Positions 5,551-11,549 of a DNA stretch of 64,000 bases are shown here, one piece after another. Under the pieces are notes generated by a model, which had not been told where the DNA came from, did no database searches, and saw nothing but the letters and a program-made list of their open reading frames with translations. Numbering within the stretch: the stretch's first letter is position 1; every line of letters starts with the position of its first letter. The translations under genes and the position numbers were made by a program. Source of the stretch: Haloechinothrix halophila YIM 93223 (lineage in GTDB: Bacteria; Actinomycetota; Actinomycetes; Mycobacteriales; Pseudonocardiaceae); contig NZ_KI632509.1 in the NCBI RefSeq assembly GCF_000504245.1, positions 2,833,751-2,897,750 of the forward strand, written 5' to 3'.

Positions 5551-6747
5551 TCACTCCTGAGCGGCGATGATCGTGCCGGTGACCTCGCCGAGGCCGATCT
5601 GGGCGCCGTGCGGGCCGGGTGCGGTGCCGGTGATGGTGACGGTGTCGCCGTCGGCGAGGAAGGTGCGGCTGCTGCCGTCGGCGAAGGTCAGCGGTTCGGT
5701 GCCGTTCCAGGTCAGCTCGATCAACGACCCTCGCTGGCCGGGTTCTGGTCCGGAGACGGTGCCGGAGGCGTACAGGTCGCCGGTGCGCAGCGCGGCCCCG
5801 TTGACGGTGGTGTGGGCCAGCATCTGCGCGGGCGAGTAGTACATCCGCGCATAGGGCGGGCGGGAGATCTCCTGCCCATTGAGCGCGAGAGCCAGGTCGA
5901 GGTCGAGGCCCCACGGTTCGGATTCGTGCAGGTAGTCCATGAGCTCCGGCTCCTGCGGCGGGGTGGGCACGCGGGCGTCGTCGAGCGCGTCGAGCGGCAC
6001 GATCCACGGTGAGATCGAGGTGGCGAACGACTTGCCGAGAAATGGGCCGAGCGGCACGTACTCCCAGGCTTGGATGTCACGTGCGGACCAGTCGTTGACC
6101 AGGCACACACCGAAAACATGCTCGGCGAAATCCTTAGTAGCCACACGTGAACCGAGCGGACTCGGCGTGCCGACGACGAAGCCGACCTCGACCTCGACGT
6201 CCAGTTTGGCCGAGGGCCCGAACGTCGGCGTGTCGTCGGCGGGTGTCTTGCGCTGCCCGCAGGGCCGGGCGATGTCAGTGCCCGAGACGACGACGGTGCC
6301 CGCGCGGCCGTGATAGCCGACCGGGAGGTGTTTCCAGTTCGGCAGCAGCGCCGCCGCATCAGGCCGGAACATGCGGCCGAGGTTGGTGGCGTGGTGCTCG
6401 CTGGCGTAGAAGTCGATGTAGTCGGCGACCTCGAACGGCAGATGCAGGCTGACGGTGTTGAGTGGGTGCAGCGCGGGCTCGACAGCCGACCGGTGGGACT
6501 CGTCGATGAGCAACTCCCGGATCCGCTCCCGCACCTGTGACCAGTTGGCGCGGCCCTGGGCCATAAACGGGTTCAGCGACGGCCGCGCGAAGACGTCGTC
6601 ACCCAGGGCGGCGGCGAGGTCAAGCACGTGATCGCCGATGCGGACCCCGACGCGCGGCGCGCCGCCCGGCGGGGTGAACACGCCGTAGGGCAGGTTGGCG
6701 ATGCCGAATCCGGAGCCGGCCGGTACCGGCGCCCAGGTGTCGTTCAC
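5551..6747 (-). CDS. fahA: Fumarylacetoacetase
   Basis: 398 residues from a GTG (6745-6747) preceded by AAAGGA. N-terminal SH3-like domain (GFGIANLPYGVF, about residues 12-23) then the FAH catalytic fold with YIDFYASEHHATNLG, VGYHGRAGTVV, LDVEVEVGFVVG, and SARDIQAWEYVPLGPF, which carry the Ca/Mg ligands and catalytic His of the eukaryote-type enzyme. It hydrolyses 4-fumarylacetoacetate to fumarate and acetoacetate, last step of the homogentisate route. Translated after the unknown gene 6814-7689, from which the palindrome at 6770-6825 separates it. An ATG further upstream at 6813 would translate the palindrome and is rejected. Confidence 0.92.
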   Translation of the reverse strand: MNDTWAPVPAGSGFGIANLPYGVFTPPGGAPRVGVRIGDHVLDLAAALGDDVFARPSLNPFMAQGRANWSQVRERIRELLIDESHRSAVEPALHPLNTVSLHLPFEVADYIDFYASEHHATNLGRMFRPDAAALLPNWKHLPVGYHGRAGTVVVSGTDIARPCGQRKTPADDTPTFGPSAKLDVEVEVGFVVGTPSPLGSRVATKDFAEHVFGVCLVNDWSARDIQAWEYVPLGPFLGKSFATSISPWIVPLDALDDARVPTPPQEPELMDYLHESEPWGLDLDLALALNGQEISRPPYARMYYSPAQMLAHTTVNGAALRTGDLYASGTVSGPEPGQRGSLIELTWNGTEPLTFADGSSRTFLADGDTVTITGTAPGPHGAQIGLGEVTGTIIAAQE

Positions 6748-6769: not shown

Positions 6770-6825
6770 GACCGGTCGTGAGTGCCTAACAGGGTTAGAA
6801 CTCTGATAGGCACTCACGACCGGTC
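6770..6825. repeat. Intergenic palindrome, copy 1
   Basis: Nineteen-base perfect arms, GACCGGTCGTGAGTGCCTA (6770-6788) and its complement (6807-6825), enclose an 18-base loop holding AGGGTT-AG-AACTCT. The element supplies the TCG-TGA end of the upstream minus-strand gene. The core (GTCGTGAGTGC ... AGGGTTAGAAC ... GCACTCACGAC) recurs at 10521-10568. An intra-operon role such as transcript processing, stability or attenuation fits the position. Confidence 0.8.
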
Positions 6826-7689
6826 GTGGCGGTGGTGCGCGAGTAGCCCGAACTCGCGAGCTTCGGTGACCGGTGTCGCGGTGCTGCAGGAGCCGTAGCT
6901 GACCAGCAGCCGCCGGGTCGCGGCGATCGTTGCCGCGCTGAGTCCAGCCACCCTGGCAAGCAGCGTCGCACGGTCGGTCGTCCGTAGCGTATCGGCGACA
7001 GCGATCACGTTAGCGCTCTCGACGGCGTCGGCGGCCGCGGCCAGCAGGTTGAGGTAGCCGTGGTGGACGAACCCGGTGGCGGGGTCGATGTAGCGCACCG
7101 CGTGATGCAACCCTGCGGTCGCTTTCACCGCCACGTCCGCCCTCGCAGCCGTTACAAGGGCACCCGCCAACATTTCGGGGCTGGGAAACAGCTCCGCGCG
7201 GATGCCTCCGCAGCGCAGCTTGAGCCGAAACGCGTCCCGTCGCGCCGCGATCGCGGCCACCAGTTCGGCCACCTCAGACCACGATGCCGGTTCGGCGAAC
7301 ACCGGGATGCCCGGTGCGACCCCAGCGGCGTCCAGTGCGCCGGCGACCACCTCCAGCGCGGCCGCGGGTGTGGCGGCGTCGACGCGGGCCAGCGGGAATT
7401 CCACCATTGACAACTCCAGCCGCGCATCGCCGGTGATCCCGGCGACCACCTCGGTCAATCCGTCGGAACCGGTGTCGGCGATCAGACCTAGCCGGAACTG
7501 GTCGGCGTTGGCCAACTCCGCGCGCAGCTCACCGAGGCGCGATGCCGGGCACAGGAACCGGTGTGTGAGCACCGCACTGTCCTCGGCGAGGTCGGAGCGA
7601 TGCCGCGCAACGGCGTCCGGCATGGCGAGCGCCGTCGGCGGAAACAGCCCGGCATCATCAACCAGCCCGTCCAGCAACGTCGTGGTCAT
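6814..7689 (-). CDS. Conserved protein of homogentisate operons, function unknown
   Basis: 291 residues, soluble, no signal peptide or membrane segment. It opens MTTTLLDGLVDDAGLFPP, contains regularly spaced strand/helix units such as FRLKLRCGGIRAELFPS and VKATAGLHHAVRY, and is rich in Ala, as in alpha/beta-barrel proteins. I know similar 'DDAGLFPP' proteins only as uncharacterised neighbours of homogentisate dioxygenase genes. The start overlaps the dioxygenase stop by 4 bp (ATGA at 7686-7689), so the two are translated together. A role in handling maleylacetoacetate (isomerisation) would fill a gap, because no maleylacetoacetate isomerase gene is visible, but that is inference. Confidence 0.7.
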   Translation of the reverse strand: MTTTLLDGLVDDAGLFPPTALAMPDAVARHRSDLAEDSAVLTHRFLCPASRLGELRAELANADQFRLGLIADTGSDGLTEVVAGITGDARLELSMVEFPLARVDAATPAAALEVVAGALDAAGVAPGIPVFAEPASWSEVAELVAAIAARRDAFRLKLRCGGIRAELFPSPEMLAGALVTAARADVAVKATAGLHHAVRYIDPATGFVHHGYLNLLAAAADAVESANVIAVADTLRTTDRATLLARVAGLSAATIAATRRLLVSYGSCSTATPVTEAREFGLLAHHRHDRS

Positions 7690-8891
7690 GTCGGCTCCCC
7701 TGCCGCCCAGGTCCAGGCGTAGCCGTCATCCTCGGCGGCGATGCCGCCCTCGCCGAGCTGCAGCGGACGGAAGGTGTCGACCATGACGGCGAGCTCGTCG
7801 AAGAACTCCACGCCGACGCTGCGCTCGTAGGCGCCCGGTTGTGGCCCGTGGGAATGGCCGCCGGGATGCAGGCTGATCGAGCCAGGCCCGATGCCCGAAC
7901 CCTTGCGGGCCTCGTAGTCGCCGCCGCAGTAGAACATCACCTCGTCGGAGTCCACATTGGAGTGGTAGTACGGCACCGGGATCGCCTGTGGGTGGTAGTC
8001 CACCTTGCGGGGCACGAAGTTGCAGATGACGAAGTTGTGACCCTCGAACACCTGGTGCGCCGGTGGCGGCTGGTGCACCCGCCCGGTGATCGGCTCGAAA
8101 TCGGCGATGTTGAACGTGTATGGGTACATGCAGCCGTCCCAGCCGACGACGTCGAACGGGTGCTTCGGGTAGACGTAGCGGGTGCCGGTGATCCCGCCGG
8201 GGCCTCGGTGTTTGACCAGCACATCGACGTCGGTGCCGTCGTGTAGTAGCGGCTCGGCAGGGCCGTGCAGGTCGCGCTCGCAGAACGGCGCGTGCTCCAG
8301 CAGTTGCCCGAACCGGGACAGGTAGCGGCGCGCGGGGATGATGTGCGAGTTCGCCTCGATGACGTACGCGCGCAACGGCTCATCGGCGTCCGGCAGCCAC
8401 CGGTGCGTGGTCGCCCTCGGCAGGATCACGTAGTCGCCCTGGCGCACCGGCAGCGCACCGAAGACCGTCTCCACCGTGCCCGAGCCGGACTCGACGTAGA
8501 CGCACTCGTCGCCGACCGCGTTGCGATACAGCGGCGATGTCTCTCCCGCCACGACATAGGAGATGCGCACGTCATCGTTGCCCAGCACCATTCTGCGGCC
8601 GGTGACCGGATCAACCGACTTCCACGCCATGCTGTCCACGTCACCGAACAGCTCGTGCAACCTCAAATGGCGAGGCTTGAGCGGATGATTCGCCGTCAAC
8701 GTCTGATCGGGTAGCTGCCACGGCTGCGCGTCGGAGATCGCCGACGGGATGTAGCGGTGATACAGCAGCGAGGAGTCGCTGGCGAACCCTTCCTCCCCCA
8801 TCAGCTCCTCGTAGTACAACCCGCCATCGGAACGCCGGTGCTGGGTGTGTCGCTTCGGTGGGACGTTGCCCACCTGCCGGTAGTACGCCAT
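7686..8891 (-). CDS. hmgA: Homogentisate 1,2-dioxygenase
   Basis: 401 residues from ATG 8889-8891 (GAGGAG ribosome site). Begins MAYYRQVGNVPPKRH and keeps the HGD cupin features: YVESGSGTVETVFG, GDYVILPRATTHRW, and the iron-site region FDVVGWDGCMYPYTFNI ... YYHSNVDSDEVMFYCGGDY. The enzyme opens the ring of homogentisate to 4-maleylacetoacetate using Fe(II) and O2. Somewhat shorter than the human type (about 445), typical of the actinobacterial/proteobacterial short form. Follows the FAD monooxygenase by 10 bp in the operon. Confidence 0.95.
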   Translation of the reverse strand: MAYYRQVGNVPPKRHTQHRRSDGGLYYEELMGEEGFASDSSLLYHRYIPSAISDAQPWQLPDQTLTANHPLKPRHLRLHELFGDVDSMAWKSVDPVTGRRMVLGNDDVRISYVVAGETSPLYRNAVGDECVYVESGSGTVETVFGALPVRQGDYVILPRATTHRWLPDADEPLRAYVIEANSHIIPARRYLSRFGQLLEHAPFCERDLHGPAEPLLHDGTDVDVLVKHRGPGGITGTRYVYPKHPFDVVGWDGCMYPYTFNIADFEPITGRVHQPPPAHQVFEGHNFVICNFVPRKVDYHPQAIPVPYYHSNVDSDEVMFYCGGDYEARKGSGIGPGSISLHPGGHSHGPQPGAYERSVGVEFFDELAVMVDTFRPLQLGEGGIAAEDDGYAWTWAAGEPT

Positions 8892-8901
8892 GGGTGGCTC
8901 C

Positions 8902-10503
8902 TCAGGACGTCGGTTGCGGTGCCGAGACGGCGGCGGTCGCTCGACGCAGCGCGGTGGCGACGTCGCCGCTGGCCGGGCGGGTGAGCACGGCGGCGACGTG
9001 CGCGTCGGGCCGCACGACCCAAACCTCGCCGGGCCGGGCGGCGAGCGCCTCAGCCGCGACGTCGTCGAGCTCAAGCACCCGGGCCGGTGCCGCCGTCGCG
9101 CCTGCGGCCGCGTTCCGCAGCGCGGCCTGGTCGGTCTCGTGGGTTGTCAGCAGCAGGAACCCGTCGCGGGCGACCTCGCGCAACCGCGTCGCTGATCCCG
9201 CGACGGTGATCGGAAAGTCCGGCACGATCACTCCTGGCGCAGGGTCGGGTGCGCTGCCACGTGGTGGTCGACCCGCGAACGGGCGGCGGGGATCGGGCGT
9301 CGTCAGTGGCGAGTCGACGTACCAGAACGGTTCGGCGAACCGGCCGGAGTCGACCTCGGGCCGGGCGGCGGGATCGTGGGCGGCGCGCTCAAGGACGTCT
9401 CGTCGCCGCTTGCGTTGTGCGTCGTCCTGCGGCACCAGGAAGTCCATCGTGGCCGTGGTGACCTCGATGTTCTCGTGCGCGGCCGCGTGACGCTCGGCGT
9501 GGTAGGACTCCAGCAGTTCTTCACCTGCCCAGCCGTGCAGCACGAACGCGAGCTTCCACGCGGCGTTCTCCGCATCGCCCACCCCGGAGTTCAGCCCGCG
9601 CGCGCCAAACGGCGACACCAAGTGCGCGCTGTCACCGGCAAGCAGCACCCGCCCGACTCGCATTCGATCCGCGATGCGGGAGTGGAACCGGTACACCGAT
9701 TGCCAGACGATCTCGTACGGCCGATCGCCGATGATCGCGCGGATGCGCGCGTCCAGCGCACCGCTGGACTGCTCGGCGGCAAGGTCGTAGTCGGCCGGCA
9801 CTTGCCAGTCGATGCGGAACGTCGAGTCCGGGCACGGGTGGATGAGGACCTGCCTGCCCGGGTTCCACTCCGGATCGAAGTAGAACCGCCGCTCATGGGC
9901 CCAGTCGGGCAGATCGGCGCGAATGTCGCAGATGAGGAACCGGTCGTCGAAGGAGTACCCGTCGAACGACACCCCCAACGCGCGACGCAGCTCATCGCCG
10001 CGCGCCCCGGCGCAGACGACCGCGTAGGCCGCGGTCACGGTCTCCTCGCGGTGCGGTGTCGCACAATGCACCACGACACCGGACGCGTTCTGCTCGATGC
10101 CGATCGCGGTATGGTTCCACCACACATCGATCAGCGGCTCAGCCGCGATCCGCTCGTCAAGCAGCTCCTCGGTACGTGCCTGCGAGATGTTGACGAACGG
10201 TGGCAGGCAAGACTTGCCAGGGTCGGGCAGGGCGTAGCTGAACAATTCCCGGTCACGGTAGAAGGTGCGGGCGGTGGTCCAGGTCAGCCCCTCGGCGGCG
10301 ATCCGCTTGCCCACACCGACCACCTCCCACACGTCAAGGACGTCCTGTTGCTGGCAGATCGCCTTCGAGCCGACCAGGTCCCGCTCCGGCCGCCCGTCGA
10401 GCACGGTCACGGCGACACCCCAGCGCGCGAGCAACAGCGCGGTCGTTTGGCCGACCGGCCCGTTGCCGATGACCACGACCCGGCCTGGTGATGTCTCGTT
10501 CAT
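8902..10503 (-). CDS. FAD-dependent aromatic monooxygenase (MhpA/PHBH-like)
   Basis: 533 residues from ATG 10501-10503 (GGAG ribosome site). VVIGNGPVGQTTALLLARWG (residues about 10-29) is the FAD dinucleotide fold, and GRVLLAGDSAHLVSPFGARGLNSGVGDAENAAWKL the second FAD motif of class A monooxygenases. The C-terminal 150 residues form the thioredoxin-like domain seen in MhpA and related phenol hydroxylases. Being in front of homogentisate dioxygenase in the same transcript, it probably makes homogentisate (for example from a 3-hydroxyphenylacetate) ; the exact substrate is inferred. No 4-hydroxyphenylpyruvate dioxygenase is present in the window, so tyrosine need not be the source. Confidence 0.85.
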   Translation of the reverse strand: MNETSPGRVVVIGNGPVGQTTALLLARWGVAVTVLDGRPERDLVGSKAICQQQDVLDVWEVVGVGKRIAAEGLTWTTARTFYRDRELFSYALPDPGKSCLPPFVNISQARTEELLDERIAAEPLIDVWWNHTAIGIEQNASGVVVHCATPHREETVTAAYAVVCAGARGDELRRALGVSFDGYSFDDRFLICDIRADLPDWAHERRFYFDPEWNPGRQVLIHPCPDSTFRIDWQVPADYDLAAEQSSGALDARIRAIIGDRPYEIVWQSVYRFHSRIADRMRVGRVLLAGDSAHLVSPFGARGLNSGVGDAENAAWKLAFVLHGWAGEELLESYHAERHAAAHENIEVTTATMDFLVPQDDAQRKRRRDVLERAAHDPAARPEVDSGRFAEPFWYVDSPLTTPDPRRPFAGRPPRGSAPDPAPGVIVPDFPITVAGSATRLREVARDGFLLLTTHETDQAALRNAAAGATAAPARVLELDDVAAEALAARPGEVWVVRPDAHVAAVLTRPASGDVATALRRATAAVSAPQPTS

Positions 10504-10520
10504 GTCGTCTCCGGATCCGG

Positions 10521-10568
10521 AGTCGTGAGTGCGTAGCAGGGTTAGAACCCTCATCCGCACTCACGACT
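10521..10568. repeat. Intergenic palindrome, copy 2
   Basis: Thirteen-base arms AGTCGTGAGTGCG (10521-10533) and complement (10556-10568), with a perfect inner stem AGGGTT (10538-10543)/AACCCT (10546-10551). Against copy 1 the sequence changes are paired (GCC/GGC became GCG/CGC; the mismatch AACTCT became AACCCT), so the folded structure is conserved. As at copy 1, the element provides the TCG-TGA end of the gene before it, here the MBL gene. Confidence 0.8.
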
Positions 10569-11523
10569 GCAGCTGGTCCCAGACCGCGCGGTCGCGCTCG
10601 GCGGTCCAGATCGTCGGCCGCTGGACACCGGACAGTTCCTCCCACACCCGTGCGACGTCGAACGGCAGGCAGTGCTCGAAAATCGGCCAGTTCCCATAGT
10701 CATCGGCCAACGCGGCATGGGCGGCGTCGAACGCATCCTTGAGGGCGCCGCCACGCTTCCGCACCGCGTCGACCTCGCGCAGCATCACGTCGAGGAAATG
10801 CCGGGTCTGGCCGATGGCGGCGGTGACCGCGTCGCGCCCATGTACCACCGCTCCCCTGCCACCGACCAGCGCCTCCGCACCCAACGCAGCCACAGCATCC
10901 AAAGTCGACGTCGACCAGTCACGATGAAACGCATCGCCGGTATAAAGCGCGGCCTGGGCCTCAACCAAGTCACCCGCGAACAGAATCCGCCGCCGCGGCA
11001 ACCACGCCACGAGGTCACCCTCGGTGTGACCCCGCCCCAGGTAACGCAGCTCCAACGCGCCCCGGTCACCACCAAGGTCAATAGTGACGGCATCACTGAA
11101 CGTCAACGTCGGCCACGTCAAACCAGGAATCGACTCCGGACCGTCGAACAACCGAGGCATCCGACCCAACTCCGATACCCAATCCTGCTCACCACGCTCA
11201 GCGATCAACCCACGCGTGTTGTCATGCGCGACAATCACCTCCGCGCCAAACGCGCTCGCCCCCAGCACCCGCACCGCGTGATAATGCGACAGCACCAGAT
11301 ACCGCACCCGCTTATCGGTGTACTCACGCAGCTTCCCCAACCACTTCCGCGCCGCGACCGGAGTCGCCAACGCCTCAAAACACACCAGAAAGTCCTCCCC
11401 CTCGACCGCGCCAACATTCGGATCACCCTCCGCCGTCAACGCATAGACACCGTCAGCAAGCACCTCCAGCCGCTGCTCCTTCTCGGTCAGGTCGGTTGAG
11501 GACGCGAATGCCTTGGTAGCCAT
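10561..11523 (-). CDS. MBL-fold protein with altered metal site
   Basis: 320 residues from ATG 11521-11523; AGGGAG lies 8 bases upstream. The metallo-beta-lactamase fold is clear (EGEDFLVCFEALAT, RYLVLSHYHAVRVLGAS, LGRGHTEGDLVAWLPRRRILFAGDLVEAQA), but the signature HxHxDH reads H80-Y-H82-A-V84-R85: the Asp and third His are replaced. GHTEGD and AGD keep other ligands. First gene of the homogentisate operon, so a hydrolase or lactonase role in aromatic breakdown is likely, with at most one metal bound. C-terminal 80 residues are helical. Ends in the palindrome at 10521-10568. Confidence 0.82.
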   Translation of the reverse strand: MATKAFASSTDLTEKEQRLEVLADGVYALTAEGDPNVGAVEGEDFLVCFEALATPVAARKWLGKLREYTDKRVRYLVLSHYHAVRVLGASAFGAEVIVAHDNTRGLIAERGEQDWVSELGRMPRLFDGPESIPGLTWPTLTFSDAVTIDLGGDRGALELRYLGRGHTEGDLVAWLPRRRILFAGDLVEAQAALYTGDAFHRDWSTSTLDAVAALGAEALVGGRGAVVHGRDAVTAAIGQTRHFLDVMLREVDAVRKRGGALKDAFDAAHAALADDYGNWPIFEHCLPFDVARVWEELSGVQRPTIWTAERDRAVWDQLQS

Positions 11524-11549
11524 CACGACCACTCCCTAATGATCAAAGC

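Follow-up and report, generated by a model that had tools for sequence, protein, structure and literature searches.

The homogentisate region of Haloechinothrix halophila YIM 93223 contains two copies of a 46-bp palindrome, each overlapping the end of one gene and standing shortly ahead of the next. Both lie in the 64,000-nucleotide (nt) stretch analysed here, hereafter the window (contig NZ_KI632509.1, positions 2,833,751 to 2,897,750 of the forward strand). The palindrome has a conserved base (GTCGTGAGTG and CACTCACGAC), a near-invariant apex (GTTAGAAC) and nine variable bases on each side between them. The label homogentisate operon is reasonable because of the Pfam matches of the minus-strand genes around both elements. 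The features are:

5551..6747, minus strand: fumarylacetoacetase, downstream of copy 1 (Pfam FAA_hydrolase, FAA_hydrolase_N)
6775..6820, plus strand (GTTAGAAC on the plus strand): palindrome copy 1, 46 bp, GTCGTGAGTG-N9-GTTAGAAC-N9-CACTCACGAC
6814..6816, minus strand: TGA stop of gene 6814-7689, element bases 5-7 in the gene-strand reading
6814..7689, minus strand: gene upstream of copy 1, 291 amino acids, without Pfam match
7686..8891, minus strand: homogentisate 1,2-dioxygenase between both elements (Pfam HgmA_N, HgmA_C)
8902..10503, minus strand: FAD-binding aromatic-ring hydroxylase, downstream of copy 2 (Pfam match)
10522..10567, plus strand: palindrome copy 2, 46 bp, member of the same palindrome family
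10561..10563, minus strand: TGA stop of gene 10561-11532, element bases 5-7 in the gene-strand reading
10561..11532, minus strand: metallo-beta-lactamase superfamily protein, upstream of copy 2 (Pfam match)

The first-pass annotation of this DNA had reported both palindromes and their overlap with the last codon and stop (TCG-TGA) of the preceding gene, and both observations were confirmed. The TCG-TGA end of the upstream gene coincides with element bases 2-7 at each copy, and the elements lie 27 nt (copy 1) and 18 nt (copy 2) ahead of the next gene. Folding compared with shuffled sequences gave z scores on the two strands of -9.6 and -11.5 for copy 1 and -6.1 and -5.3 for copy 2. No Rfam family reaches its gathering threshold in the window, and four loci of the element gave sub-threshold matches only. 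A 14-nt palindrome, CTCCGGATCCGGAG (window 10509-10522), also separates copy 2 from the start codon that follows it (10503, minus strand), where it covers the likely ribosome site of the gene starting there.

The palindrome is dispersed through the 5.55-Mb genome of the window (G000; other G numbers denote sampled genomes). Searching for its exact two-arm pattern turned up 19 places as against 0 for the backwards control, and the palindromes are therefore not due to chance. With up to three mismatches 33 places were found, all of which are used in the counts below. The genome-wide covariance search that the first-pass annotation had named as a check (both strands; model built on 38 copies from G000 plus other genomes; 150 of 1934 first-look candidates scored) returned the same 33 places and none further at E<=1. 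Deviations from the consensus are rare in the base arms (5/660) and apex (1/264) and frequent in the variable stem (144/594), and predicted hairpin energies range from about -18 to -46 kcal/mol on either strand. No partly decayed copies were found in G000 by the mismatch and covariance searches, which favoured intact arms, so that hidden decayed copies are possible; about 7% of copies changing at the stem rate would still pass the three-mismatch limit.

Of 200 genomes sampled from the window's own family, 33 (G000 included) had matches, spread over 11 of 46 genera and ranging from 0 to 466 per genome, with 33, 1, 0 and 0 in the genomes of the window's genus. A sample of 100 relatives had a match in 11 genomes, again including G000, and a class sample of 296 genomes had one in G000 alone (0 of the 295 others, one of which belongs to the same family). 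The named matches, among those listed, come from Amycolatopsis and Qaidamihabitans, which belong to the Pseudonocardiaceae by taxonomy, and from Prauserella, which we take to be placed there too. As far as sampled, the element appears confined to this one family. The named set comprises at least 117 loci with 135 copies, mostly of Amycolatopsis and many from shared species; the scan of these loci demanded an exact base and apex and is blind to decay of those parts. We refer to them as the listed named copies, all counts for them applying to the matches listed.

Gene calls were made with a home-made codon-model gene finder that missed at least one open reading frame (ORF), so the context counts are approximate. 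The G000 copies comprise 20 in tandem, 7 convergent, 3 divergent and 3 inside genes; the 135 listed named copies comprise 71 convergent, 45 tandem, 6 divergent and 1 inside a gene, with 12 at locus ends left unused. Convergent or tandem contexts thus hold 27 of 30 intergenic copies in G000 and 116 of 122 listed named ones. Weighting by intergenic length predicts 22.6 convergent and 40.2 divergent copies for the latter (observed 71 and 6), and G000 agrees in direction (7 convergent vs 3.4 expected, 3 divergent vs 11.2). Tandem copies are usually closer to the upstream stop (16/20 in G000, 36/45 listed named). As for position relative to stop codons, the other check named in advance, 32 of the 34 adjacent gene 3' ends in G000 fall within 25 nt of the element, the remaining two at 80 and 719 nt; distances in the listed named loci extend beyond 1 kb, many exceeding 100 nt. 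The apex shows an even orientation relative to the mRNA (12:8 in G000, 22:23 listed named).

Dedicated bidirectional I-shaped terminators without a U-tract, sharing sequence and standing at gene ends because that is where they function, would account for several of these features, namely the strong hairpins on both strands, the many convergent junctions (71/122) and the even orientation. TRIT or I-shaped terminators, associated with RNIE and Gardner's work of 2011, which PMC3526491 cites, are reportedly conserved hairpins without a U-tract at the gene ends of an actinobacterium; the likeness to our element is that of a U-tract-less gene-end hairpin, by description only and not by sequence. In Streptomyces clavuligerus, highly structured 3' ends without a U-tract are more numerous than those that have one (353 vs 182; PMC8269248). 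Our element likewise has no U-tract, the T fraction in the 10 nt past it being only 0.13 (0.127 in G000, 0.136 in the named copies), or 0.17 (0.167) on the other strand, which tells against a terminator. So do the 167 of 200 family genomes without a match, the copies between co-oriented genes (the window's included) and inside three genes, and the near-invariant base and apex, which a terminator should not need. We regard this explanation as rather unlikely.

Where a gene end overlaps a copy in G000, it stops at the TGA of element bases 5-7, in the TCG-TGA frame, in 16 of 16 cases (p 2e-8 for a one-frame-in-three chance). In the listed named loci the same frame serves 20 of 28 overlapping ends, the others stopping at -24 (five) and at -18, -14 and -11 (one each). 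A frame scan independent of the gene finder gave TCG-TGA in 13 of 16 cases in G000, two of the three exceptions remaining open through the element, and in 17 of 26 listed named cases. A 336-amino-acid ORF that the gene finder had missed, located between two G000 copies and without a Pfam match, ends at the TCG-TGA of a copy counted as divergent. The proposal that the palindromes supply stop codons therefore stands for the overlapping gene ends of G000, but stop provision is not a rule of the palindrome family, since 18 of 34 adjacent 3' ends in G000 and 167 of 187 in the listed named loci do not use the element's TCG-TGA.

The favoured frame would also be expected if the hairpin were selected at the stop codon, where it would stall or recycle ribosomes in a stop-coupled control of translation. 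The 16/16 and 20/28 overlapping ends and the 336-amino-acid ORF agree with such control, and REPs (repetitive extragenic palindromes) of Escherichia coli reportedly stall ribosomes when they lie within 15 nt of a stop codon (PMC12306157). Yet just 20 of 187 listed named 3' ends have their stop in the TCG-TGA of the element, many lying more than 100 nt away, and tolerance alone would leave the same favoured frame, that with the shortest tail. Orthologous sites lacking the element bear on the same point. At the copy 1 site G003 has no element and the gene ends seven codons earlier; at the copy 2 site it has no element and reads CAG-TCG-TAA at the same codon position. Copy 2 is also absent from G001, G002, G018, G019, G021 and G071, with TGA at the same codon in G001, G002 and others. 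The G000 copy at 3430098 is absent in G002 and G003, where GGC-TGA takes the place of TCG-TGA at the same codon position, and that at 3416752 is absent in the same two genomes, the G000 gene being 11-12 codons shorter. Among these four junctions a new stop was therefore made in two, while in the other two the stop keeps the codon position of the element-free sister and so is not new. We hold translational control to be an improbable basis for the placement.

Three G000 copies (L158:5001-5046, L166:5001-5046, L172:5001-5046) are translated within proteins; they share one orientation and one frame, the frame that stays open. They encode VVSAHQGSNPDQHSRP in NuoG, VVSADHGSNSDQHSRP in a tetrapyrrole methylase protein and VVSADQSSNPDQHSRP in a DhaK-DhaL fusion. 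In NuoG and DhaK-DhaL the element sits between Pfam domains; in the methylase protein, which has two matched stretches, it follows the first domain and lies ahead of what is, judged from sequence, the second. The orthologous NuoG linker holds different, longer palindromes in G003 (L303:1966-2022) and G002 (L304:2029-2085), and none was seen by eye in G001; the methylase linker of sister genomes is shorter and without an evident palindrome. We also observed that the G002 NuoG-linker palindrome has the same GTCGTGA/TCACGAC ends. The earlier description of the palindromes as fixed to gene ends cannot be upheld, given that 3 of 33 copies are inside genes and that sister genomes lack the four copies compared above at their orthologous positions.

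Comparisons within Amycolatopsis covered three copies of A. azurea at two junctions. A. orientalis and A. pittospori have neither the element nor a hairpin evident by eye at the first junction, where A. keratiniphila and A. oliviviridis hold other hairpins (by eye). At the second junction there is nothing in A. orientalis, A. pittospori or strain WAC 01376. For the terminator explanation, the other hairpins at the first junction are a point in favour and the lack of element or evident hairpin in A. orientalis and A. pittospori at both junctions a point against.

The claim that differences between copies are paired, and hence that the fold is selected, fared differently in the two sets of copies. 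Window copies 1 and 2 differ at five pairs, only one of which is compensatory (C-G to G-C), another changing from G.T to G-C, two being broken in copy 2 and one unpaired in both. The G000 consensus is a perfect palindrome, but none of 32 distinct copies is fully Watson-Crick over pairs 1-20, and 196 of the 288 variable-stem cells are paired, where independent columns would give 182 (196 or more in 7 of 2000 shuffles). To judge from these alignments, the G000 stem appears to have decayed from an ancestor that was paired, without compensation, the base and apex having remained intact. The 103 distinct listed named copies, by comparison, have 734 of 927 variable-stem cells paired vs about 411 by chance, none of 500 shuffles coming up to 734. 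Their stem sequences are diverse, and 31 of these copies are fully paired; here the claim of paired differences holds well. In a mixed alignment (A3) both sides of a pair have changed in 100 cells, as against 36 after shuffling, with slid controls low, while its number of pairs with both-sided change (9 vs 8.3 expected, 173 of 500 shuffles) does not stand out. Kinship among copies inflates all of these pairing and covariation counts. A larger hairpin beyond 46 bp was rejected for G000, where flank pairing is at chance level; in the listed named loci it is somewhat over chance at a few positions. Separately, longer, subfamily-specific palindromes seem to enclose the 46-bp core of several named copies at their centre.

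Two further explanations turn on these stems. The palindrome might be a double-stranded protein-binding site, for instance of a nucleoid or recombination protein, with two 10-bp half-sites and a central GTTAGAAC and with no RNA hairpin involved. The near-invariant base and apex with their fixed 46-bp spacing, the loss of pairing in the G000 stems and the even orientation would suit such a site, but the named stems remain complementary with many sequences (the 100 vs 36 of A3), which a double-stranded site does not need, and we think a binding site quite improbable. Alternatively, stem complementarity may stem from template switching between the arms (quasipalindrome correction) instead of selection on the fold. 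Template switching is a known mutational process at palindromes, and the stems differ blockwise between subfamilies, in line with it; the G000 stems, however, have not been corrected, with 0 of 32 copies fully Watson-Crick though their consensus is. This origin of the pairing seems to us somewhat doubtful.

In the broad sense the palindrome is a REP, with tens to hundreds of dispersed copies near gene 3' ends, and in this the resemblance to REP-like elements noted in the first-pass annotation is upheld. According to Di Nocera et al. (2013, PMC3733652), GTAG/CGTC REPs are 20-40 bp in size, lie mostly between convergent or co-oriented genes near 3' ends and in some cases sit inside ORFs, and those with the GTAG tag often supply the TAG stop of flanking ORFs; the words Actinobacteria and Streptomyces have 0 occurrences in that paper. 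Our element shares with these REPs the short, dispersed, many-copy palindromes, the 3'-end placement, the stop provision and some intragenic copies, but differs in its lack of a tag, symmetric GTCG..CGAC ends, 46-bp length, near-invariant 8-nt apex and Pseudonocardiaceae host. No GTAG/CGTC tag was found in the flanks, position -1 being G in 110 of 133 listed named copies and mixed in the 33 of G000. It resembles the E. coli REP/BIME (bacterial interspersed mosaic element) as an extragenic palindrome at 3' ends; unlike RAYT-REP systems (RAYT, REP-associated tyrosine transposase), it is untagged, its copies are mostly single in the loci inspected, and G000 and the five copy-rich genomes tested have no Y1 (RAYT-type) transposase. 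Rickettsia palindromic elements (RPE), mentioned within ORFs in the same paper (PMC3733652), are likewise palindromes translated in-frame inside host proteins (here 3/33), whereas our copies are mostly extragenic, the likeness being by description and not by sequence. Miniature inverted-repeat transposable elements (MITEs) are similarly small, non-coding, dispersed inverted repeats with element-free orthologous sites, and differ in that we saw no target-site duplication and found no parent transposon (7 of 29 intervening genes scanned). The element is thus not a GTAG/CGTC REP, not consistently RAYT-linked and not a canonical terminator, and it seems to form a family separate from the known REP repeats. 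Our search of the literature on repeats of Amycolatopsis and the Pseudonocardiaceae, which left subscription papers mostly outside, found no account of it.

We consider it likely that the copies represent a mobile REP-like extragenic palindrome of the Pseudonocardiaceae that is tolerated by its hosts and possibly serves as an mRNA 3'-end hairpin. Copies would have spread through an activity recognising the base and apex, insertion often replacing some target bases, and would survive mainly where little harm is done, just past stop codons. They may also be tolerated in gene tails that run in frame into TCG-TGA two codons on and, rarely, within genes in an open frame. Tolerance can account for the placement. 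The transcript would then carry a strong hairpin at or just past the stop codon, whichever strand is read, and this hairpin is probably a 3'-end barrier that would protect or end transcripts and slow terminating ribosomes, the last as E. coli REPs close to a stop reportedly do. Given the like placement and stop provision of published REPs, their reported stalling of ribosomes and the common U-tract-less hairpin 3' ends of S. clavuligerus, a 3'-end role would seem likely.

Several observations weigh against mobility as the whole explanation. The Y1 transposase PF01797 was not found in G000 or in the copy-rich G017, G022, G029, G055 and G059, and the 28 genomes searched also gave 0 matches in G005, G042 and G043. 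It is present in G030 (33 element matches), G002 (1) and G001, G009 and G014 (0 each), so that a RAYT origin is unsupported by the search, with G030 as an exception. Inspection by eye, with no formal test, revealed no target-site duplication in the 33 copy flanks or at the compared element-free sites, and no target motif was found by eye or in flank composition. Some sites appear replaced and not cleanly split, which is a poor fit to a classical transposon. A. decaplanina holds a family member with another stem at the first A. azurea junction, and A. oliviviridis also has a copy at the second, as does A. thailandensis at a contig end. Finally, the Amycolatopsis stems covary so well that, going by their sequences, mobility alone cannot account for them, and either selection on the fold or arm-to-arm repair has to be at work too. 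Because sister species share some copies and the Y1-bearing G030 is copy-rich, our confidence in a mobile REP-like element is tempered. Neither of two other vehicles was supported. One Amycolatopsis copy, searched against 72,556 plasmid and 50,697 phage records (E 0.01), had no match, and a composite transposon found no support in the 7 of 29 genes scanned between paired named copies, which encode a cellulase, a subtilase, an alpha/beta hydrolase, a glycosyltransferase, an AlkZ-like DNA glycosylase, a P450 and one protein without a match, with no transposase among them.

A further reading is a RAYT-independent class of palindromic repeats, in which a host factor would read the base and apex and copies would replace local sequence and be kept as a module combining stop codon and 3' end. 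What stands in the linker of NuoG and at the A. azurea junctions suggests that other hairpins at the same spot may be replaced as well. We hold such a class to be unlikely. As a mobile, tolerated REP-like palindrome, the element extends REP-like biology to an actinobacterial family that includes antibiotic producers, without tags and, for the greater part of the genomes tested, without the transposase, and raises the question of how such palindromes spread without a RAYT-type enzyme. Copy numbers run from 0 to 466 per genome, in some cases inside a single genus, and with element-free sites available the effects on RNA 3' ends, on the termination of translation and on protein tails can be tested copy by copy; the element also alters the way in which some C-termini and the interiors of a few proteins are encoded.

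Other repeats were noticed in the course of the analysis. A diverged duplicate (83%) of part of the homogentisate operon lies at G000:C1:3392800-3395078 and carries a copy of element 2 at G000:C1:3394400-3394445 that is identical at 46 of 46 positions, its flanks matching at 270 and 289 of 300. G000 has a second palindromic family, GAGGCGTT..AACGCCTC, at L164:9000-9059, L168:9887-9934 and L176:1645-1686, and other dispersed repeats occur at L107:3854-3971 and in the flanks of many A. orientalis-group copies.

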